Part shown: piece by piece, positions 42,795-53,700 of the stretch | Numbering within the stretch: position 1 is the first letter of the stretch | Layout of the letters: every line of letters starts with the position of its first letter | Assembly: GCF_004765815.2 (NCBI RefSeq) | Contig: NZ_SBIS02000007.1 | Location: forward strand, 62,001-126,000 | Length of the DNA stretch: 64,000 nucleotides | Direction: 5' to 3' | From: Halorussus salinus | Lineage (GTDB): Archaea > Halobacteriota > Halobacteria > Halobacteriales > Haladaptataceae | The notes under the pieces: model-generated | What the model saw: only the letters and a program-made list of their open reading frames with translations | What the model was told of the DNA's origin: nothing | Database searches by the model: none | Program-made: the position numbers and the translations under genes

Positions 42795-43859
42795 CTACAG
42801 CGTCAGCGTCGCCTCGTCCATCCCGAAGAACGCCATCTCGTAGCCCTCGTGGCGGGCGGTCTGCGGAGGTGCATCGACCGAAATCGTCAGTTCGTCGCCC
42901 GACTCGACGCTCGGGACGGCCGCGCCGTAGTGGTAGTCTACGTCCGGGTCGATGGCCGACCGGAGCGCGCCGTCGTGTAGCGTCTCGCCGCCGCGTTTCA
43001 GCGTCGCCGACACCGACATCAGCGGCACGACCATGCGGTTGTACGGCGACCGAGGAGACACCGCGAGGTACGTCTCGGTCTCGTCGCCGCCGAAGGGCGT
43101 CGCGTCCGACAGCGTGGTGACGACGAACGGGACCTCGCCGACGGTGGCGGTCCCCCGGCCGGTTCCGGGGAGCGCGTCGGGTTTCGGGACCCGCGTACTC
43201 GGCATCATCTCCATCTGCATGGGGTCTACCGCTCCCTTCGTGCCCTCCTTCTCGGGGGGCACGTCGTGGTACGCGATGTCGCTCAGTTTCGACTCCTCGA
43301 AGTCGAGTTCGAAGTCGAACGACTCCTCGCCCTCGTTGTCGGCCAGCGCGCCGGTCCGGCGGGCCGTGGGCGCACCGATGCTGACCTCGACTCGGTAGGT
43401 TCCGTCGCCGCCCAACTGGACGTTGTCGCCGAAGTGAAAGCCCATCCGCTGGGAGAGCATCGGCCACGGTTTCAGTCGCGTGACCTCCTCGCCGCCCTGC
43501 GTGACGCTCACTTGCGGGTTGATGTCCGGTGGCACGATGCCGGTCTCGGACTCCCAGACGACCGGCATCAGGTGGAGCGAGTCGGCGTCTTTCACCTCGA
43601 CTTTCTTCCGGCGGTCGCCCGTCACCAGCCAGAAGGCGTGGGGGCTGATGTACGTCAGGGCACACTCGTAGTTCCCGCTTCGGTTCGTTCCGACCGTCTC
43701 CATCCCGCCGTAGTGAGTCGGGACGTAGACGGCATCCGGGCGCTCCTCGACGGGGAGGAGTTCGCTGGACGACCCGCTGTCCAGAAGCCCGCCCATACAG
43801 CCAGCGAGTCCGGCGAGCGTTCCGGCACCCGCCGCCCCGAGGAGGTCACGCCGACGCAT
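42795..43859 (-). CDS. Tat lipoprotein resembling the periplasmic Fe2+ transport protein P19/Tp34
   Basis: A 354-residue exported lipoprotein (RRRDLLGAAGAGTLAGLAGC, Cys21). The first 190 residues resemble the iron-transport-associated P19/Tp34 domain: ADSLHLMPVVWESETG, then MGFHFGDNVQLGGDGTYRVEV, where bacterial members carry the metal-binding His and Met residues. A Met-rich stretch (DPMQMEMMPSTRVP) and a second beta-rich domain complete the protein. This suggests copper or iron handling outside the cell. No FTR1-type permease is beside it. Family placement is by eye. Confidence 0.6.
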   Translation of the reverse strand: MRRRDLLGAAGAGTLAGLAGCMGGLLDSGSSSELLPVEERPDAVYVPTHYGGMETVGTNRSGNYECALTYISPHAFWLVTGDRRKKVEVKDADSLHLMPVVWESETGIVPPDINPQVSVTQGGEEVTRLKPWPMLSQRMGFHFGDNVQLGGDGTYRVEVSIGAPTARRTGALADNEGEESFDFELDFEESKLSDIAYHDVPPEKEGTKGAVDPMQMEMMPSTRVPKPDALPGTGRGTATVGEVPFVVTTLSDATPFGGDETETYLAVSPRSPYNRMVVPLMSVSATLKRGGETLHDGALRSAIDPDVDYHYGAAVPSVESGDELTISVDAPPQTARHEGYEMAFFGMDEATLTL

Positions 43860-45048: not shown

Positions 45049-46305
45049 TTATCGCTCGGCGAAGACGCCCAAAATCAGTCCTGCGAACGCGAGCGCGCCG
45101 ACGAGCGCACTCGCGCGACCGGCGAGGAGTCCCGTTTCCACGCCCGCGAGCGCGCCGCCGAGTTCCGCCAGCAGGCCGCCCGCGACGAGCGCGACAGAGG
45201 CGAGCGCGGTCCGGTCGGACGCGCCGGGGAACGTCCCGACCGTCGGCGGGTAGAACTGGTAGGTCGCGCCGACTATCGTCAGTCCGAGGAATCCGAGGAC
45301 GTTGAGTCGGAAGTGGACCGCGGTCAGGTCGGGCGCGACTCCGATGCTTCCGAACGCGAACCCGACCCCGAGCGCGACGCCGCAGACGCCCGCCGCGACG
45401 CCAGCGAGGACGGCGTAGAAACCGACCCGGCGGCGCTCGGAGCGCGCAAACAGGACGGCGTAGGCCGCCGCGAACCCGACGACGGCGAGGGCTTCGACGG
45501 CGGCCCCGACCCTGAACAGCGGCGGCCGGTAGAGACCCGCCGCGAGGAGCGCCGGACCGACCGCGCCCCCGAGCAGGACGACCCCGACCAGCGACCGCGG
45601 CGGCGACGCGACCAAAAATCTGGGAAACAGGCGGAACCCCACCGCGAAGACGAGGAGCGCCGCGGTGCCCGCCGCCAGCAGGTGGGCGGTGCGGGCCGCC
45701 GCCAGCGTCTCGAACCCGGTCAGCGCCTCGAAGCCGAGGAGTCCGACCGGGAGCGACCCGGCGTCGCCACCGTGGAGCGCGAGGGTGGCCCAACTCCCGG
45801 CGACGAGGTACGCGAGGACGACCGGCACGAAGGCGTTCGACAAGCGGTCCACTCCTCGGCGGTGCGATTCGGTGTCGCTCGTGCCGGTTTCGCGGCCGGT
45901 CGGATTGTCGCGGAGGGTCCACGCGAGCGCCGCGACGAAGACCGCGACGCCCGCGCACCACGAGAGCGCGCCGACGGGGGCGACGACTTCCGGAACTCCG
46001 GAGAGGGGCGCGAGCGCGAGGCAGACCGCGCCGCCGACGGTCAGCGGGAACTGGACCACCGGCGCGCGCGGAACGGCGAGCGACCGGTCGAAGTACGACG
46101 GCACGAGCGAGTAGGCCTTCCCGAAGACGGTGTGGAGGACGAAGCCGTAGACCGCGAGGGTGACGTGGGTTCGATGGGGGAGCGCGGCGATGGGAGACAC
46201 CGCGGGAAGCACGTCCGCGAGCGCGACGACCTGCCACGCGACCAGAAAGACCGCGCTCGCGGCGACGAACCGCCGCGCCCAGCGGGACACGATACCTGCG
46301 CTCAT
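45049..46305 (-). CDS. polytopic membrane protein, NnrS / haem-copper oxidase-I-like
   Basis: A 418-residue protein with about twelve spans. Conserved-looking His residues lie in or near spans: LPHRTHVTLAVYGFVLHTVFG (His44, His47, His58), RTAHLLAAGTAALLVF and DLTAVHFRLNVLGFLGLTIVG. This resembles NnrS proteins, which bind haem and are linked to nitric oxide stress, and short subunit-I-like proteins, but I cannot place it firmly. Its ATG lies directly next to the stop of the MoaD-fold gene upstream (stop 46306, start 46305), so translation is coupled and the two very likely work together. Confidence 0.7.
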   Translation of the reverse strand: MSAGIVSRWARRFVAASAVFLVAWQVVALADVLPAVSPIAALPHRTHVTLAVYGFVLHTVFGKAYSLVPSYFDRSLAVPRAPVVQFPLTVGGAVCLALAPLSGVPEVVAPVGALSWCAGVAVFVAALAWTLRDNPTGRETGTSDTESHRRGVDRLSNAFVPVVLAYLVAGSWATLALHGGDAGSLPVGLLGFEALTGFETLAAARTAHLLAAGTAALLVFAVGFRLFPRFLVASPPRSLVGVVLLGGAVGPALLAAGLYRPPLFRVGAAVEALAVVGFAAAYAVLFARSERRRVGFYAVLAGVAAGVCGVALGVGFAFGSIGVAPDLTAVHFRLNVLGFLGLTIVGATYQFYPPTVGTFPGASDRTALASVALVAGGLLAELGGALAGVETGLLAGRASALVGALAFAGLILGVFAER

Positions 46306-46767
46306 TCAACAACAGAAGATGAACGGGTAGCACAGTCCCACTCGGTCGCCGTCGCGCAGGGTTGTGTCGAGTCCCGCGAGGTGTTCGTTGAACTGGCCGT
46401 TGACCAGCACGCGGGCGTAGGTCCGAGTCTGCTCGCCCTCGGGATTCTTGCGCCACGTGCCGGGCAACTCGTCGGGCGGGTCGGCCCACCCGCGCGTGGT
46501 CGCCTCGTCCTCGGTCTCCGCGAGCAAGAGGTCTTTCACGTCGTACTCCTCGAAGAACGCGTCGAGGAACGCGCGGAGCGTGGTCCCCTCGAAGGAGACC
46601 GAGAGCTTCGGTTCGCCGACCGCGGTCCGGACGTGGCCCGTGCAACGGACCTCGACGGTGGTCTCGGGAGCGTCGCCCGTGGTTCGGCGCTCGTCGGCCT
46701 CCTCGCGGGAGTCGGCGGGTTTGCGCTCGGCGGCGGTCTCCTCGGCGGTCCGTGCGTCGCTCTGCAT
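46306..46767 (-). CDS. MoaD/ThiS-fold protein ending in Cys-Cys
   Basis: A 153-residue protein. Residues 1-50 are a Glu/Thr/Arg-rich head. From VEVRCTGHVRTAVGEPKLSV on it is a beta-grasp domain: helix TLRAFLDAFFEEYDVKDLL, ARVLVNGQFNEHLAG, and TLRDGDRVGLCYPF, which align with the end of MoaD/SAMP, where the sequence would read FPPVAGG. Here the chain ends FIFCC (Cys152-Cys153), so diglycine conjugation cannot occur; a Cys pair could hold metal, persulfide or a disulfide. Coupled to the NnrS-like gene. ATG 46767 is used. Confidence 0.75.
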   Translation of the reverse strand: MQSDARTAEETAAERKPADSREEADERRTTGDAPETTVEVRCTGHVRTAVGEPKLSVSFEGTTLRAFLDAFFEEYDVKDLLLAETEDEATTRGWADPPDELPGTWRKNPEGEQTRTYARVLVNGQFNEHLAGLDTTLRDGDRVGLCYPFIFCC

Positions 46768-46921
46768 GGTCGAACCTACGCGCTCCGGCGTGGAATAGCT
46801 CTCCTCGAACATGTTCGGCCGGGACGTTGCCCCGGCCGCGGTGCGGTCTCGTAGGCGTCGGCGATAGTGCTTCGACTCCGACGACCGTAGCTATTTCAGC
46901 CACGAAGCCAAATCCGCGGGT

Positions 46922-47302
46922 ATGGACGAAATTTCGTTGACGATTCCCGACGCCATCGTCGAGTCACTGCCCGCAGACGGCGACGACGCCGCGAAGGACA
47001 TGCGACGCGCGGTCGAGGGCTGGGAACAACGCCTGAATCGAGTCGTCGCCGAGGAGGACGACGAAGCCGCGGCGGGCGCGGTGGTGGACGCGCTCGAACG
47101 CTTCGAGAGCCGGTGGGAGCAGTACGACGACTTCGTGGCCGAGTTGCGGGCGTGGGGCCAATCGCCCATCTACGCAATGGCGTGGCGCGACCTGATGGGC
47201 GCGCTGATGCGTCAACTGTACGACCACGAGGACCTCGGCGAGCGCATCGACCGCGAGCGCCACGCGCGCCTCGTCAGCGACGGTATCCGACCCGGCCGAT
47301 GA
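46922..47302 (+). CDS. hypothetical helical protein, 126 residues
   Basis: A soluble, mainly helical protein rich in Glu, Ala and Asp, with hydrophobic residues every third or fourth position (DMRRAVEGWEQRLNRVVAEE; FVAELRAWGQSPIYAMAW). No motif or family is recognised. TATA-like GCTATTTCAG is about 25-34 bases before the ATG, so it has its own promoter. The stop overlaps the next gene's start (ATGA). Confidence 0.72.
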   Translation: MDEISLTIPDAIVESLPADGDDAAKDMRRAVEGWEQRLNRVVAEEDDEAAAGAVVDALERFESRWEQYDDFVAELRAWGQSPIYAMAWRDLMGALMRQLYDHEDLGERIDRERHARLVSDGIRPGR

Positions 47303-47844: not shown

Positions 47845-47877
47845 GTGTTTATACTCGCGGGACTCCAACGGCGTGAT

Positions 47878-48171
47878 ATGACTCTCGAACTCCGCTTCTT
47901 CGCCAACTTCCGAGAGGCGGTCGGCCAGAAGACCGTCGAACGCGAGTACCCCGACGACACCACCGTCGGCGAGGTCCTCGCCGACCTGACCGACGAGTAC
48001 GGCCTCGACCTGTTCGAGGAGGGCGACCTGCGACCCCAACTGTCCATCATGAAGAACGGCAAGGACGTGGTTCACCTCGACGGCGTGGACACGCTCCTCT
48101 CGGACGGCGACACGTTGAGCGTCTTCCCGCCGGTCGCTGGCGGAAGCTACCGGCCCGAAACGACCACATGA
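47878..48171 (+). CDS. SAMP3/MoaD-like beta-grasp protein with residues after the diglycine
   Basis: A 97-residue MoaD/SAMP-family protein: MTLELRFFANFREAVGQKTVE at the start and DGDTLSVFPPVAGG near the end match SAMP3-type proteins. The diglycine at residues 88-89 is not terminal; eight residues, SYRPETTT, follow. UbaA needs a free C-terminal Gly-Gly, so a cut after Gly89 would be needed for activity, as with eukaryotic ubiquitin precursors. TATA-like TGTTTATAC lies about 23-31 bases before the ATG. The next gene overlaps by four bases (ATGA). Confidence 0.88.
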   Translation: MTLELRFFANFREAVGQKTVEREYPDDTTVGEVLADLTDEYGLDLFEEGDLRPQLSIMKNGKDVVHLDGVDTLLSDGDTLSVFPPVAGGSYRPETTT

Positions 48172-48440
48172 AGCGCATCGAGAAGTCCTATCGCGGCATC
48201 TCCGAACGCCTCGCCAGACGCTACCTCTCGAACCTCGGCGGCGACATCGAGGGCGGCGACCCGGAGGGCGACGGCGACGTGATCGGCGACGAGTGGCGCG
48301 CCAGCGTCTCCTCGGAGAAAGTACAAATCGGCGCGTCCGTCACGCTGACGGAGGTCACGGTCGTCTTCGAGGGCGAGGAGGACGCCCTCGACGGGCTAAT
48401 CGAGAAGTTCTCCCAGAAGGCGATGCGAGCGGGCGGGTAA
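48168..48440 (+). CDS. small protein coupled to the SAMP-like gene, ending in Gly-Gly
   Basis: A 90-residue soluble protein with an alpha/beta pattern (RIEKSYRGISERLARRYLS, then KVQIGASVTLTEVTVVFEG, then a final helix GLIEKFSQKAMRAGG). It is not obviously a beta-grasp protein, yet it ends in Gly-Gly like a SAMP. I recall small domains of this kind (DUF1952-like) beside or fused to MoaD in some prokaryotes, but I am not sure. Overlap with the SAMP-like gene suggests joint synthesis; it might be a partner, or itself a modifier. Confidence 0.78.
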   Translation: MKRIEKSYRGISERLARRYLSNLGGDIEGGDPEGDGDVIGDEWRASVSSEKVQIGASVTLTEVTVVFEGEEDALDGLIEKFSQKAMRAGG

Positions 48441-48465
48441 GCGTGGATTGGAAACGTCTTCGACC

Positions 48466-48825
48466 ATGACCGCCGACAACCCCATCGAAGGCCAGATTCT
48501 CGTCCTCACGGCCGCGAAGGCCAGCGTCGGGGGCGAGCGCGTGCCCGACCTCGTGGCCGAGGCCCGCCGAGCGGTCGAACCGCGGGCCGATGAGTTGCGC
48601 CGCCGGTACGAGCGCGTCCACCGAGACGAGGTGCGCGAAATCTTCCTCGTGCCCGATGGATTTTGGGCCGACGAGGGCGAGAAACTGGGCTGGTCGCGCC
48701 GCGCTCACGAGGCGGTCGCCCGCGCCCACGCCGAGCAACTGTTACGGGTGGGCAAGCGCGAACAGCGCCGCGACGAGTTCGAGACCGCCTTGGAGGTGCG
48801 CGAGGCCGTCGTTATCGGTGCGTAG
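48466..48825 (+). CDS. hypothetical protein, 119 residues
   Basis: A soluble alpha/beta protein with a helical middle (VAEARRAVEPRADELRRRYERV) and a charged end rich in Arg and Glu (LLRVGKREQRRDEFETALEVRE). No motif is recognised. ATG 48466 is preferred to an upstream ATG six codons earlier, which would give the extension METSST. It follows the SAMP-like pair by 25 bases on the same strand and may belong to the same transcript, which gives the only hint about its context. Convergent with the next gene, five bases between stops. Confidence 0.7.
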   Translation: MTADNPIEGQILVLTAAKASVGGERVPDLVAEARRAVEPRADELRRRYERVHRDEVREIFLVPDGFWADEGEKLGWSRRAHEAVARAHAEQLLRVGKREQRRDEFETALEVREAVVIGA

Positions 48826-51613: not shown

Positions 51614-53545
51614 TCAGTCGTCGCCCGACGCCGCCGCGCCGCCCGAACTCACGCCGGTTCCGGGACCGATGTCGATGCCGAGTTCGTCCAGTTTCTCGTC
51701 GGGGACTACGCCGTCCTCCCAGCCGCGGACCTCGTAGTACTCGTCTTTGAGTTGGTCGAGTTCCACGAGTTGGCCCTCCGAGCCGCCCTGTCCGGGGATG
51801 GCCTTGGGGTCGCCCTCCACGAACCGGGCGGGTAGGTCGTCGTCGCTCCCGTCGAAGCCGACGAGGTTGTTGTAGTAGCGTTCGAGGTTGTAGATGCGCT
51901 CGCCCGCCTCCATCAGTTCCTCCTCGGAGAAGTCCAGTCCCGTCATGCCGTTGAACTGGAGGACGTACTCCTCGATGCCCTCCGCGAAGGCGTTGAACTT
52001 GCAGATGTCGAACGAGTCGCTGATGGCGTGGAGGTCTTGGAACGTCGCGCAGAGTTCGCCCTTCCCCTCGGGTTCGCTCGGGTCCACCTTGGTCGGGATG
52101 CCCAGAATCTCGGCCGAGGGCGTGTACCCCCGGAGGTGGCAGGCCCCGCGGTTCGAGGTGGCGTAGCCGATGGCCATCCCCTTCATCGCCCGCGGGTCGT
52201 AGGCCGCCATCGTCTGGCCCTTCACGTCGAGGCTCATGTCGGGGTCGCCGAACTCGGCGGCCGCCCTGCCCGCGCCCTCCGCGAGCGAGTCCGCGAGGTC
52301 GTCCTCGCGGTGGGCGATGCGCTCTATCATCTCTATCATCGTGTCGGCGTCGCCCCAGTCGAGGCCCTCCTCGATGTGGCCCTCCTCGGTCGCCTCCATC
52401 GCCATCGCCATCGTGTTGCCCACGTCGATGGTGTCCACGCCCATGTCGTTGCACCGGTCTATCATCATCGCGACCTTGTCGCGGTCGTCGCTCATCGAGT
52501 TGGGACCGAGCGCCCACGCCGACTCGTACTCGTAGGACTCCATCCGGATGTTGTGGTCCTCGCCCTTGTGGTGAACGTCAACCTCGACCTCCTTCTTACA
52601 CGCGACCGGACAGGAGTGGCAGGTCGGTTCGTCCACGAGGATGTTCTCGCGGACGTTCTCGCCGGAGACGTTCTCGGCGTCGATGTTGGGTTCCGAGGGG
52701 TCTTCTTCCGCCTCGCTACTGGTCGAGGTGTTCTTCGCGTTGCGGGTGGGGAGACCGTCCATCTCCTCGGTCAGGTTCATCAGGACGTTGGTGCCGTACA
52801 TCGAGAGACCGCCCTCGTTGGGCGCGGTCACGTCGGACTCCTGAATCACCTGCATCGCCTGCTTGTGGCCCTCTTGGAACGTCTCGGGGTCGGCGGGCTT
52901 GGGCATCTTTGTCGAGGACTTGACGACGACGGCCTTGAGGTTCTTCGACCCCATCACCGCGCCGGTGCCGCCCCGACCCGAGGCGCGGTCGTCCTCGTTC
53001 ATGATGCAGGCGTACCGGACCTGATTCTCGCCGCCGGGACCGATGGCCATCACCGAGAGGTTCTTGCCGACCTCGCCGTCCACCTCGTCGCCGAGTTCGT
53101 CTATCGTGTCGTGGACGCCCCAACCCCAGAGGTGGGAGGCATCGCGGAGTTCGACCTCGCCGTCCTCCACGACGGCGTAGACGGGGTCCTCGGCCTCGCC
53201 ATCGAACAGCAGGCCGTCGAATCCGGCCCACTTGAGGCGCGCACCGGACCACCCGCCGTGGTGGGAGTCGGTCACGGTGTTCGTGAGCGGCGACTTCGTG
53301 ACGACCGCGATGCGCCCGCTCATCACGGTCTGAGTTCCGGTGAGCGGCCCGTTCATGAACGCGAGCAGGTTGTCCGGGCCGAGGGGGTCCACGTCCGGCC
53401 CTTGGTCGAAGACGTACTTCACCCCCAAGCCGCGCGCGCCGATGTACTTCCGAGCGTCCTCGTCGTCGATGGGCTCGTAGGCTACCTCCTCGTCGCTCAG
53501 GTCGATGCGGGCGACGTTGTCTTGGAATCCGCCGAGGTCAGTCAT
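51614..53545 (-). CDS. aor: aldehyde ferredoxin oxidoreductase (AOR family, tungsten pterin)
   Basis: A 643-residue AOR-type enzyme that oxidises aldehydes to acids with ferredoxin, using a tungsto-bispterin and one [4Fe-4S] cluster. The N-terminal domain starts DNVARIDLSDEEV and has ARGLGVKYVF and NDEDDRASGRGGTGAVMGSKNL-like loops (read here as MNEDDRASGRGGTGAVMG). The cluster Cys ligands are CHSCPVAC (three Cys) and a later Cys in SFDICKFNAF. The C-terminus is an Ala/Ser/Gly-rich tail. MoaB and MoaD-like proteins in this window could serve its cofactor. Upstream: TAATACAAGTG in the promoter region. Confidence 0.93.
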   Translation of the reverse strand: MTDLGGFQDNVARIDLSDEEVAYEPIDDEDARKYIGARGLGVKYVFDQGPDVDPLGPDNLLAFMNGPLTGTQTVMSGRIAVVTKSPLTNTVTDSHHGGWSGARLKWAGFDGLLFDGEAEDPVYAVVEDGEVELRDASHLWGWGVHDTIDELGDEVDGEVGKNLSVMAIGPGGENQVRYACIMNEDDRASGRGGTGAVMGSKNLKAVVVKSSTKMPKPADPETFQEGHKQAMQVIQESDVTAPNEGGLSMYGTNVLMNLTEEMDGLPTRNAKNTSTSSEAEEDPSEPNIDAENVSGENVRENILVDEPTCHSCPVACKKEVEVDVHHKGEDHNIRMESYEYESAWALGPNSMSDDRDKVAMMIDRCNDMGVDTIDVGNTMAMAMEATEEGHIEEGLDWGDADTMIEMIERIAHREDDLADSLAEGAGRAAAEFGDPDMSLDVKGQTMAAYDPRAMKGMAIGYATSNRGACHLRGYTPSAEILGIPTKVDPSEPEGKGELCATFQDLHAISDSFDICKFNAFAEGIEEYVLQFNGMTGLDFSEEELMEAGERIYNLERYYNNLVGFDGSDDDLPARFVEGDPKAIPGQGGSEGQLVELDQLKDEYYEVRGWEDGVVPDEKLDELGIDIGPGTGVSSGGAAASGDD

Positions 53546-53700
53546 AGTAACGTTGTACACTTGTATTAGGGCGGTAACGTGTTAGTGGTTGCCGTACGGG
53601 CGTAACCGATTGTGGTTACGTCGAACTCCGCACCGAGGAGCCCCACCTCCAGCGTCGCCGACCGTCGCTTTTTAGCGCCGGACGCGCCAACGCTCGGTCA

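Follow-up and report, generated by a model that had tools for sequence, protein, structure and literature searches.

The way in which MoaD, ThiS, Urm1, and the SAMPs work is explained by the free glycines at their C terminus. Some genes of this kind have been tied to tungsten enzymes: MoaD genes that are linked to aldehyde:ferredoxin oxidoreductase (AOR) were proposed to serve the tungsten cofactor (PMC1779556), aorD and aorE are another AOR-linked precedent (PMC6365974), and in T. kodakarensis, mutants in ubiquitin-like proteins (Ubl) lose the activities of tungsten enzymes (PMC11323500). A haloarchaeal beta-grasp family with a CC motif at its C terminus, arCOG00539, was recorded in 2010 (Makarova and Koonin, PMC2948915); no function is proposed for it in the main text as read. 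Our text search found arCOG00539 in none of the other papers searched, and in the papers that we read we found neither the AOR nesting nor the operator that we describe below.

The window (the whole 64-kb stretch of Halorussus salinus DNA that was analysed) contains a gene of this type. The features that we discuss are:

42795-43859, minus strand: protein with DUF7350 and Iron_transport domains, near the operon
45049-46305, minus strand: 418-aa membrane protein with 12 spans, heme-copper-oxidase fold, linked to NirK; its start codon immediately follows the stop codon of the MoaD-like gene
46306-46767, minus strand: MoaD-like protein of the arCOG00539 type, ending in Phe-Cys-Cys; 153 aa when counted from Met16
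46806-46817, no strand: CGAACATGTTCG, predicted anaerobic/denitrification operator, 38 nt upstream of the ATG at 46767
46922-47302, plus strand: 126-aa conserved divergent neighbour; the operator region is common to it and the MoaD-like gene
47845-48171, plus strand: SAMP1-type MoaD protein, a recurrent neighbour
48168-48440, plus strand: 90-aa protein ending in AGG, which by context fits the GG-ended TBP-fold family arCOG06308
48448-48825, plus strand: 125-aa protein, a conserved neighbour in loci of the SAMP1/AOR type
51614-53560, minus strand: tungsten AOR, the family that encloses the distribution of the MoaD-like family (Pfam AFOR_N/AFOR_C on the homologue in locus L077)

The MoaD-like gene and its cysteine tail

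The minus-strand ORF at 46306-46812 encodes 168 amino acids, and its translation ends in ...DRVGLCYPFIFCC (YPFIFCC). Judging from the upstream sequence, translation very probably begins at Met16 (46767), the start that the original prediction also used, because the upstream ATG falls within the conserved operator and because the distance of 38 nt from Met16 to the operator is the spacing of most homologues. The protein matches Pfam ThiS above the cut-off (2e-5; 25.3 bits, cut-off 22.5), and it scores under the cut-offs of the NCBIfam profiles SAMP1 (NF041918, 23.5 of 60 bits) and moaD_arch (TIGR01687, 28.6 of 49.5 bits). The AlphaFold2 (AF2) model has a mean pLDDT of 74.9, with core blocks at around 90 and values below 50 at the N-terminus and for the last three residues, so that the tail is disordered in the model. 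Comparison of this model with MoaD, SAMP1, and SAMP3 gave Z scores of 9-12 (Foldseek and VIA), including 12.1 for MoaD 6jbz_B (rmsd 1.7, 82 aligned residues), 11.9 for P. furiosus MoaD, and 11.1 for H. volcanii SAMP1 (3po0). The model shows the beta-grasp fold of MoaD. Thus, the original prediction, which was made from the sequence alone, was right about a MoaD/SAMP-type beta-grasp domain.

The nearest named homologues are from Halorussus. The protein was found in 52 of 99 related genomes and in 124 of 194 genomes from across the class. A CC-tailed MoaD-like gene is not due to chance, because the family is spread over many genomes and because the tail is kept in nearly all of the copies that we checked. 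We will term the family MoaD-CC. We surveyed the tails of the best 80 of 133 confirmed homologues, all of which are haloarchaeal. None of these 80 homologues ends in Gly-Gly. Their tails have the form F/Y-C-C/V/L, and the commonest are YPFMFCC, YPFIFCC, and YPFLFCC. In an alignment of 73 rows, Cys167 is present in all 73, and Pro163, Phe164, Thr58, and Gly59 are also without exception. His60 is present in 72 rows and Cys57 in 70 (L, F, or P in the other three). At the final position, 66 rows (about 90%) have C, 5 have V, and 2 have L; there is also a homologue that ends in C-F (locus L096). The motifs of the family are PF-x-(F/Y)-C-x at the tail, C-T-G-H-V in beta1, and an insertion, PGTWxKNPxGEQTR.

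So, the YPFIFCC ending is real and is a trait of the family, and the possibility that it is a local change is ruled out by its retention over the best 80 of 133 loci. As judged from the alignment, the conserved feature of the tail is a single penultimate cysteine and not a vicinal dithiol: because the final residue may be V, L, or F, neither a dithiol nor a disulfide appears to be required. Because the family as a whole keeps the CC end, diglycine or thiocarboxylate chemistry at this tail seems unlikely. The original prediction had argued that the protein must work without a free diglycine, by thiol chemistry, metal binding, or a disulfide. The first part is probably right, as none of the best 80 of 133 homologues ends in GG, but a disulfide is not needed, as the penultimate Cys alone is invariant. 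The prediction also took the gene to be part of something undescribed, but the CC motif was already in Makarova and Koonin (PMC2948915). MoaD-CC is a real, conserved, and under-described family whose CC motif was already known.

We also looked for GG-ended close relatives outside of the haloarchaea. In a sample of 296 genomes from the phylum, the matches outside of the order were all weak and confined to the last strands of MoaD (the best had E = 7.8e-6 and covered query positions 92-130), and in this sample the MoaD-CC family stops at the order. A few genomes contain tandem second copies of MoaD-CC that are more diverged (L158:9302-10849; G176:C4:161100-161946; G216:C44:96153-97031). Another copy, which has AOR nearby, has lost the tail, apparently by a change of frame (L077:9706-10188 in genome G078, ending ...YSGSRRKPTALAVG).

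Nesting within AOR genomes and the upstream operator

By distribution, the strict partner of the MoaD-like protein is tungsten AOR. Among the near-complete relatives (83 of the 99, chosen without a contamination filter), the counts of genomes with both, with MoaD-CC only, with AOR only, and with neither were 48/0/12/23 (P = 4.5e-12, or 9e-10 without Halorussus), and they were 124/0/28/42 across the 194 genomes of the class (P = 3.9e-24); these P values take genomes as independent, and as safeguards we have the test by genus (18/1/3/16, P = 1.3e-6) and a count restricted to the newly drawn genomes (94/0/21/27, P = 2.6e-16). In other words, AOR was found in 124 of 124 class-wide genomes with MoaD-CC and in 28 of the 70 without it. 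The one genome in which MoaD-CC was found without a detected AOR (G040, in the first sample) is 78% complete. The nesting persists when the near-complete genomes are split by denitrification: MoaD-CC is present in 37 of 41 denitrifiers with AOR and 0 of 15 without AOR, and in 11 of 19 non-denitrifiers with AOR and 0 of 8 without AOR. Queries with NirK, NorB, and AhbC on the same genomes gave no comparable nesting of MoaD-CC, which argues against a plain effect of genome size. What the nesting shows is dependence, which is not the same as a physical interaction. Strict adjacency was not seen: AOR lies within 10 kb of MoaD-CC at 15 of the best 80 of 133 loci (and about 5 kb away in the window). 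Also, because 28 of the 152 genomes with AOR lack MoaD-CC, MoaD-CC is not needed for AOR everywhere.

Two other associations were considered and rejected. A role for MoaD-CC in denitrification only does not fit, as the overlap with NirK/NorB is weak (P ~ 0.04) and 11 near-complete carriers have neither. The AhbC-type radical SAM gene TIGR04347 is a neighbour in several families, but it does not co-occur with MoaD-CC (P = 1.0). In one Natrialbaceae locus, a candidate for a CGCGG family rSAM-modified RiPP (TIGR03995, L082:10985-11290) is flanked by MoaD-CC on one side and by a pair of radical SAM/SPASM genes (TIGR04347 and TIGR04053) on the other.

In loci of Halorussus, Haloarcula, and Halobacterium, MoaD-CC is recurrently linked to AOR, SAMP1, the GG-ended 90-aa protein, and a pair of small neighbours. 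Within 10 kb of MoaD-CC, we found SAMP1 at 15 and UbaA at 4 of the best 80 of 133 loci. The SAMP1-type ORF in the window continues for eight residues (SYRPETTT) past VAGG, so its Gly-Gly is not C-terminal in that frame, and its last four bases overlap the start of the next ORF. A GG-ended TBP-fold protein of arCOG06308 has been described beside a MoaD-like Ubl (PMC2948915). Separately, a 121-aa protein with no Pfam match (f52; L089:7703-8068, G000:C1:1015751-1016089) is present in 57 of 60 near-complete AOR genomes and in one genome without AOR. It adjoins AOR in Haloarcula-type loci and looks like an AOR accessory.

The sequence upstream of MoaD-CC suggests when it is expressed. CGAACATGTTCG is the only instance of CGAACNNGTTCG in the window, which is not remarkable by itself because 0.48 instances are expected in 64 kb. 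Across the family, CGAA-N4-TTCG with a varying centre lies upstream of MoaD-CC at 76 of the best 80 of 133 loci (the background is about 6% per 450 bases), and in most of the 58 loci that could be measured, the strict operator ends 37-38 nt before the first in-frame ATG. The strict operator is also upstream of 21 of 23 genes of a second COX1-like membrane family and 6 of 11 NirK genes, and an operator is near 17 of 24 members of the family of the 126-aa divergent neighbour. The strict operator was not found upstream of SAMP1 (0 of 25), AOR (0 of 22), or an unrelated synteny gene (0 of 34), and because of the result for AOR, we conclude that AOR and MoaD-CC are not coregulated by the strict operator. 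The same 12-mer as CGAACATGTTCG is the operator of nor and nosZ in H. mediterranei, where mutating it lowers anaerobic promoter activity (PMC10062603). In H. volcanii, nirK and ahbD carry the palindrome CGAA-X4-TTCG, which is essential for nirK activity (PMC5746218, citing Hattori 2016). By its operator, MoaD-CC is predicted to belong to the haloarchaeal anaerobic (NarO/DmsR-type) regulon.

The membrane protein and its link to NirK

In the window, the 418-aa membrane ORF begins with an ATG that adjoins the TGA of the MoaD-like gene (TGAATG). The model of the membrane protein (pLDDT 89.5) has 12 transmembrane-size helices and one short extra helix, and three His within the spans are conserved (H58, H208, and H331, in helices 2, 6, and 10). 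These results agree with the 12-span protein with His in its spans that had been predicted to adjoin the MoaD-like gene. It had also been called NnrS-like, an assignment that we reject: Pfam NnrS (PF05940) has no match at E <= 10 in this protein or in the genome, and the protein has the heme-copper-oxidase fold and tracks NirK. Its model aligns to NorB (4xyd_A) with Z = 34.4 (rmsd 2.8, 372 aligned residues) and to CcoN (8smr_E) with Z = 34.2, and the heme-copper matches span about 372-391 residues. Identity to the structures of heme-copper oxidase subunit I is 12-14%, and no sequence profile in PDB or Pfam matches. By hhalign, we found nothing against haloarchaeal NorB (E = 0.77) and a partial match to the second COX1-like membrane protein (probability 85, E = 6e-6, 95 columns). 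That second COX1/ccoN-like family (f7; L079:10682-12088) has sub-threshold matches to PF00115 and TIGR00780, is often beside MoaD-CC, and is uncharacterised.

Heme-copper oxidases have a set of six His that bind metals; the membrane protein has three conserved His in its spans. Because helix 7 (237-256) contains no conserved His, a full binuclear metal site is unlikely. From their positions in the helices, H58 and H331 may hold a low-spin haem. Among the near-complete relatives, 33 genomes have both the membrane gene and NirK, 4 and 7 have just one of them, and 39 have neither (P = 4.7e-12; 8.5e-8 without Halorussus; 8e-4 by genus). The membrane protein is not linked to AOR (P = 0.33). The best explanation is that it is a separate member, with a heme-copper-oxidase fold, of the NirK/denitrification set. 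A protein that tracks NirK and has this fold without the full set of ligands is an uncharacterised addition to haloarchaeal denitrification.

Is the membrane gene a fixed partner of MoaD-CC? In Halorussus, it begins 0-1 nt after the MoaD-like gene in most of the loci that we examined (in one, after 36 nt), and the two genes are very probably cotranscribed. More broadly, it is within 10 kb at 24 of the best 80 of 133 loci, from several families. In an example from Natrialbaceae, a gene for the second COX1-like membrane protein and AhbC/AhbD-type radical SAM genes lie between or beside the pair. Co-occurrence of MoaD-CC and the membrane gene is significant among the near-complete relatives (P = 0.004) but loses significance when Halorussus is left out (P = 0.30) and in the test by genus (P = 0.52), which rules out an obligate pair. 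So, the original prediction that the two proteins are made together fits Halorussus, where the genes adjoin, but the neighbour is not fixed, and the proposed sulfur, copper, or haem handling pair is not what the distribution of MoaD-CC points to: its partner by distribution is tungsten AOR, not the membrane protein.

Possible roles and comparison with known systems

We propose that MoaD-CC is an anaerobically induced accessory of AOR or of the tungsten cofactor that acts through Cys167 in its tail, and we give this a probability of a little under one half (about 0.45). A role with the cofactor is plausible because the literature ties MoaD/Ubl genes to AOR and tungsten enzymes; the lack of GG stands against a simple MoaD role. 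It would be a MoaD paralogue that has given up Gly-Gly/thiocarboxylate chemistry, that is made under low oxygen or during nitrate respiration (as the operator suggests), and that helps AOR and its tungsten-pterin by maturation or repair. The flexible tail could enter the active site of a partner, as the tail of MoaD does, and Cys167 might carry the chemistry as a thiol or a persulfide, possibly with Cys57 and His60 nearby; it is the conservation of the cysteine that suggests a persulfide step. The SAMP1-type protein could supply the Gly-Gly that MoaD-CC lacks. In Halorussus, the membrane protein would have become the second gene of the MoaD-CC operon. A more specific proposal, which we consider rather doubtful, is a ubiquitin-like carrier in which a C-terminal cysteine persulfide replaces the Gly-Gly thiocarboxylate and which serves the tungsten enzyme only during anaerobic respiration. 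If so, beta-grasp proteins would have a third chemistry, in addition to the transfer of thiocarboxylate and isopeptide tagging.

Other roles for the MoaD-like protein seem less probable. Cys57, His60, Cys167, and usually Cys168 might bind Cu, Zn, or W, so that the protein would be a metallochaperone or would insert metal into the pterin. Across the 73 rows, there is almost no variation in the C-T-G-H of beta1 or in the tail Cys, and in the MoaD fold beta1 neighbours the last strand. However, Cys57 is changed in 3 of the 73 rows, Cys168 is changed in 7 (to V or L), and both are replaced in two Haloferax rows; also, the tail is disordered in the model. We think that such a site is unlikely. A similarly unlikely role is that of a decoy that cannot be activated and that docks on MoaE or on the E1 UbaA when oxygen falls, which would slow molybdopterin synthesis or SAMP conjugation or would shift these towards the tungsten route. 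In favour of this, the protein has a MoaD fold with its tail at the place of GG. Also, many loci have SAMP1 as an adjacent gene and a few have UbaA, and covalent linkage of SAMP1 inhibits MPT synthase (PMC4443979). But a pure decoy needs no invariant Cys, and if it were induced in nitrate respiration, it would presumably inhibit the molybdenum nitrate reductase.

Finally, the MoaD-like protein could bind the membrane protein and shuttle metal, haem, or NO-derived groups for denitrification. The close spacing in Halorussus, the proximity of the genes in several families, and the tracking of NirK by the membrane protein would all fit. So would the denitrification operator, which is upstream of both families in some lineages, and the several loci that have NirK, NorB, radical SAM genes of the AhbC/AhbD type, and halocyanin close by. 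Nevertheless, we consider this quite improbable, given that the co-occurrence of the two genes is not significant once Halorussus is left out or when genera are counted, that MoaD-CC is absent from all 15 of the sampled denitrifiers without AOR, and that the membrane protein has no link to AOR.

A large conserved family with a MoaD fold and an invariant cysteine at the place of the glycine must work otherwise than by free glycines. The AOR nesting and the operator give a first place to test this: the maturation or protection of a tungsten enzyme in nitrate-respiring haloarchaea. The question bears on why haloarchaea, which are mostly grown with oxygen, retain a type of AOR that is known from strict anaerobes.

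How do these proteins compare to known systems? The membrane protein resembles subunit I of heme-copper oxidases and NO reductases (CcoN and NorB) in the fold of the whole chain, but only three of its in-span His are conserved, with none in the helix that is expected to contain the His pair for Cu-B/Fe-B. MoaD-CC shares with SAMP1, SAMP3, and MoaD the beta-grasp fold, the VNG..LxGLxT.LxDGDxV core, and a tail after the last strand. In contrast to these proteins, it ends in F-C-x and not in G-G, its beta1 reads CTGHV and is not of the FFA..R type, it contains a long conserved insertion (PGTWxKNPxGEQTR), and it is under the SAMP1 and moaD_arch cut-offs. In lineage, fold, and CC tail, it is the same as arCOG00539 as described in PMC2948915, with the difference that we find an invariant Cys only at the penultimate position and variation at the last one. 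Like the AOR-linked MoaD genes, AorD/AorE (PMC1779556, PMC6365974), and TK1065/UblC of T. kodakarensis (PMC11323500), MoaD-CC is tied to tungsten AOR. Those proteins are treated as MoaD-type cofactor factors, whereas MoaD-CC has a Cys tail instead, usually does not adjoin AOR, and has an anaerobic operator of its own.
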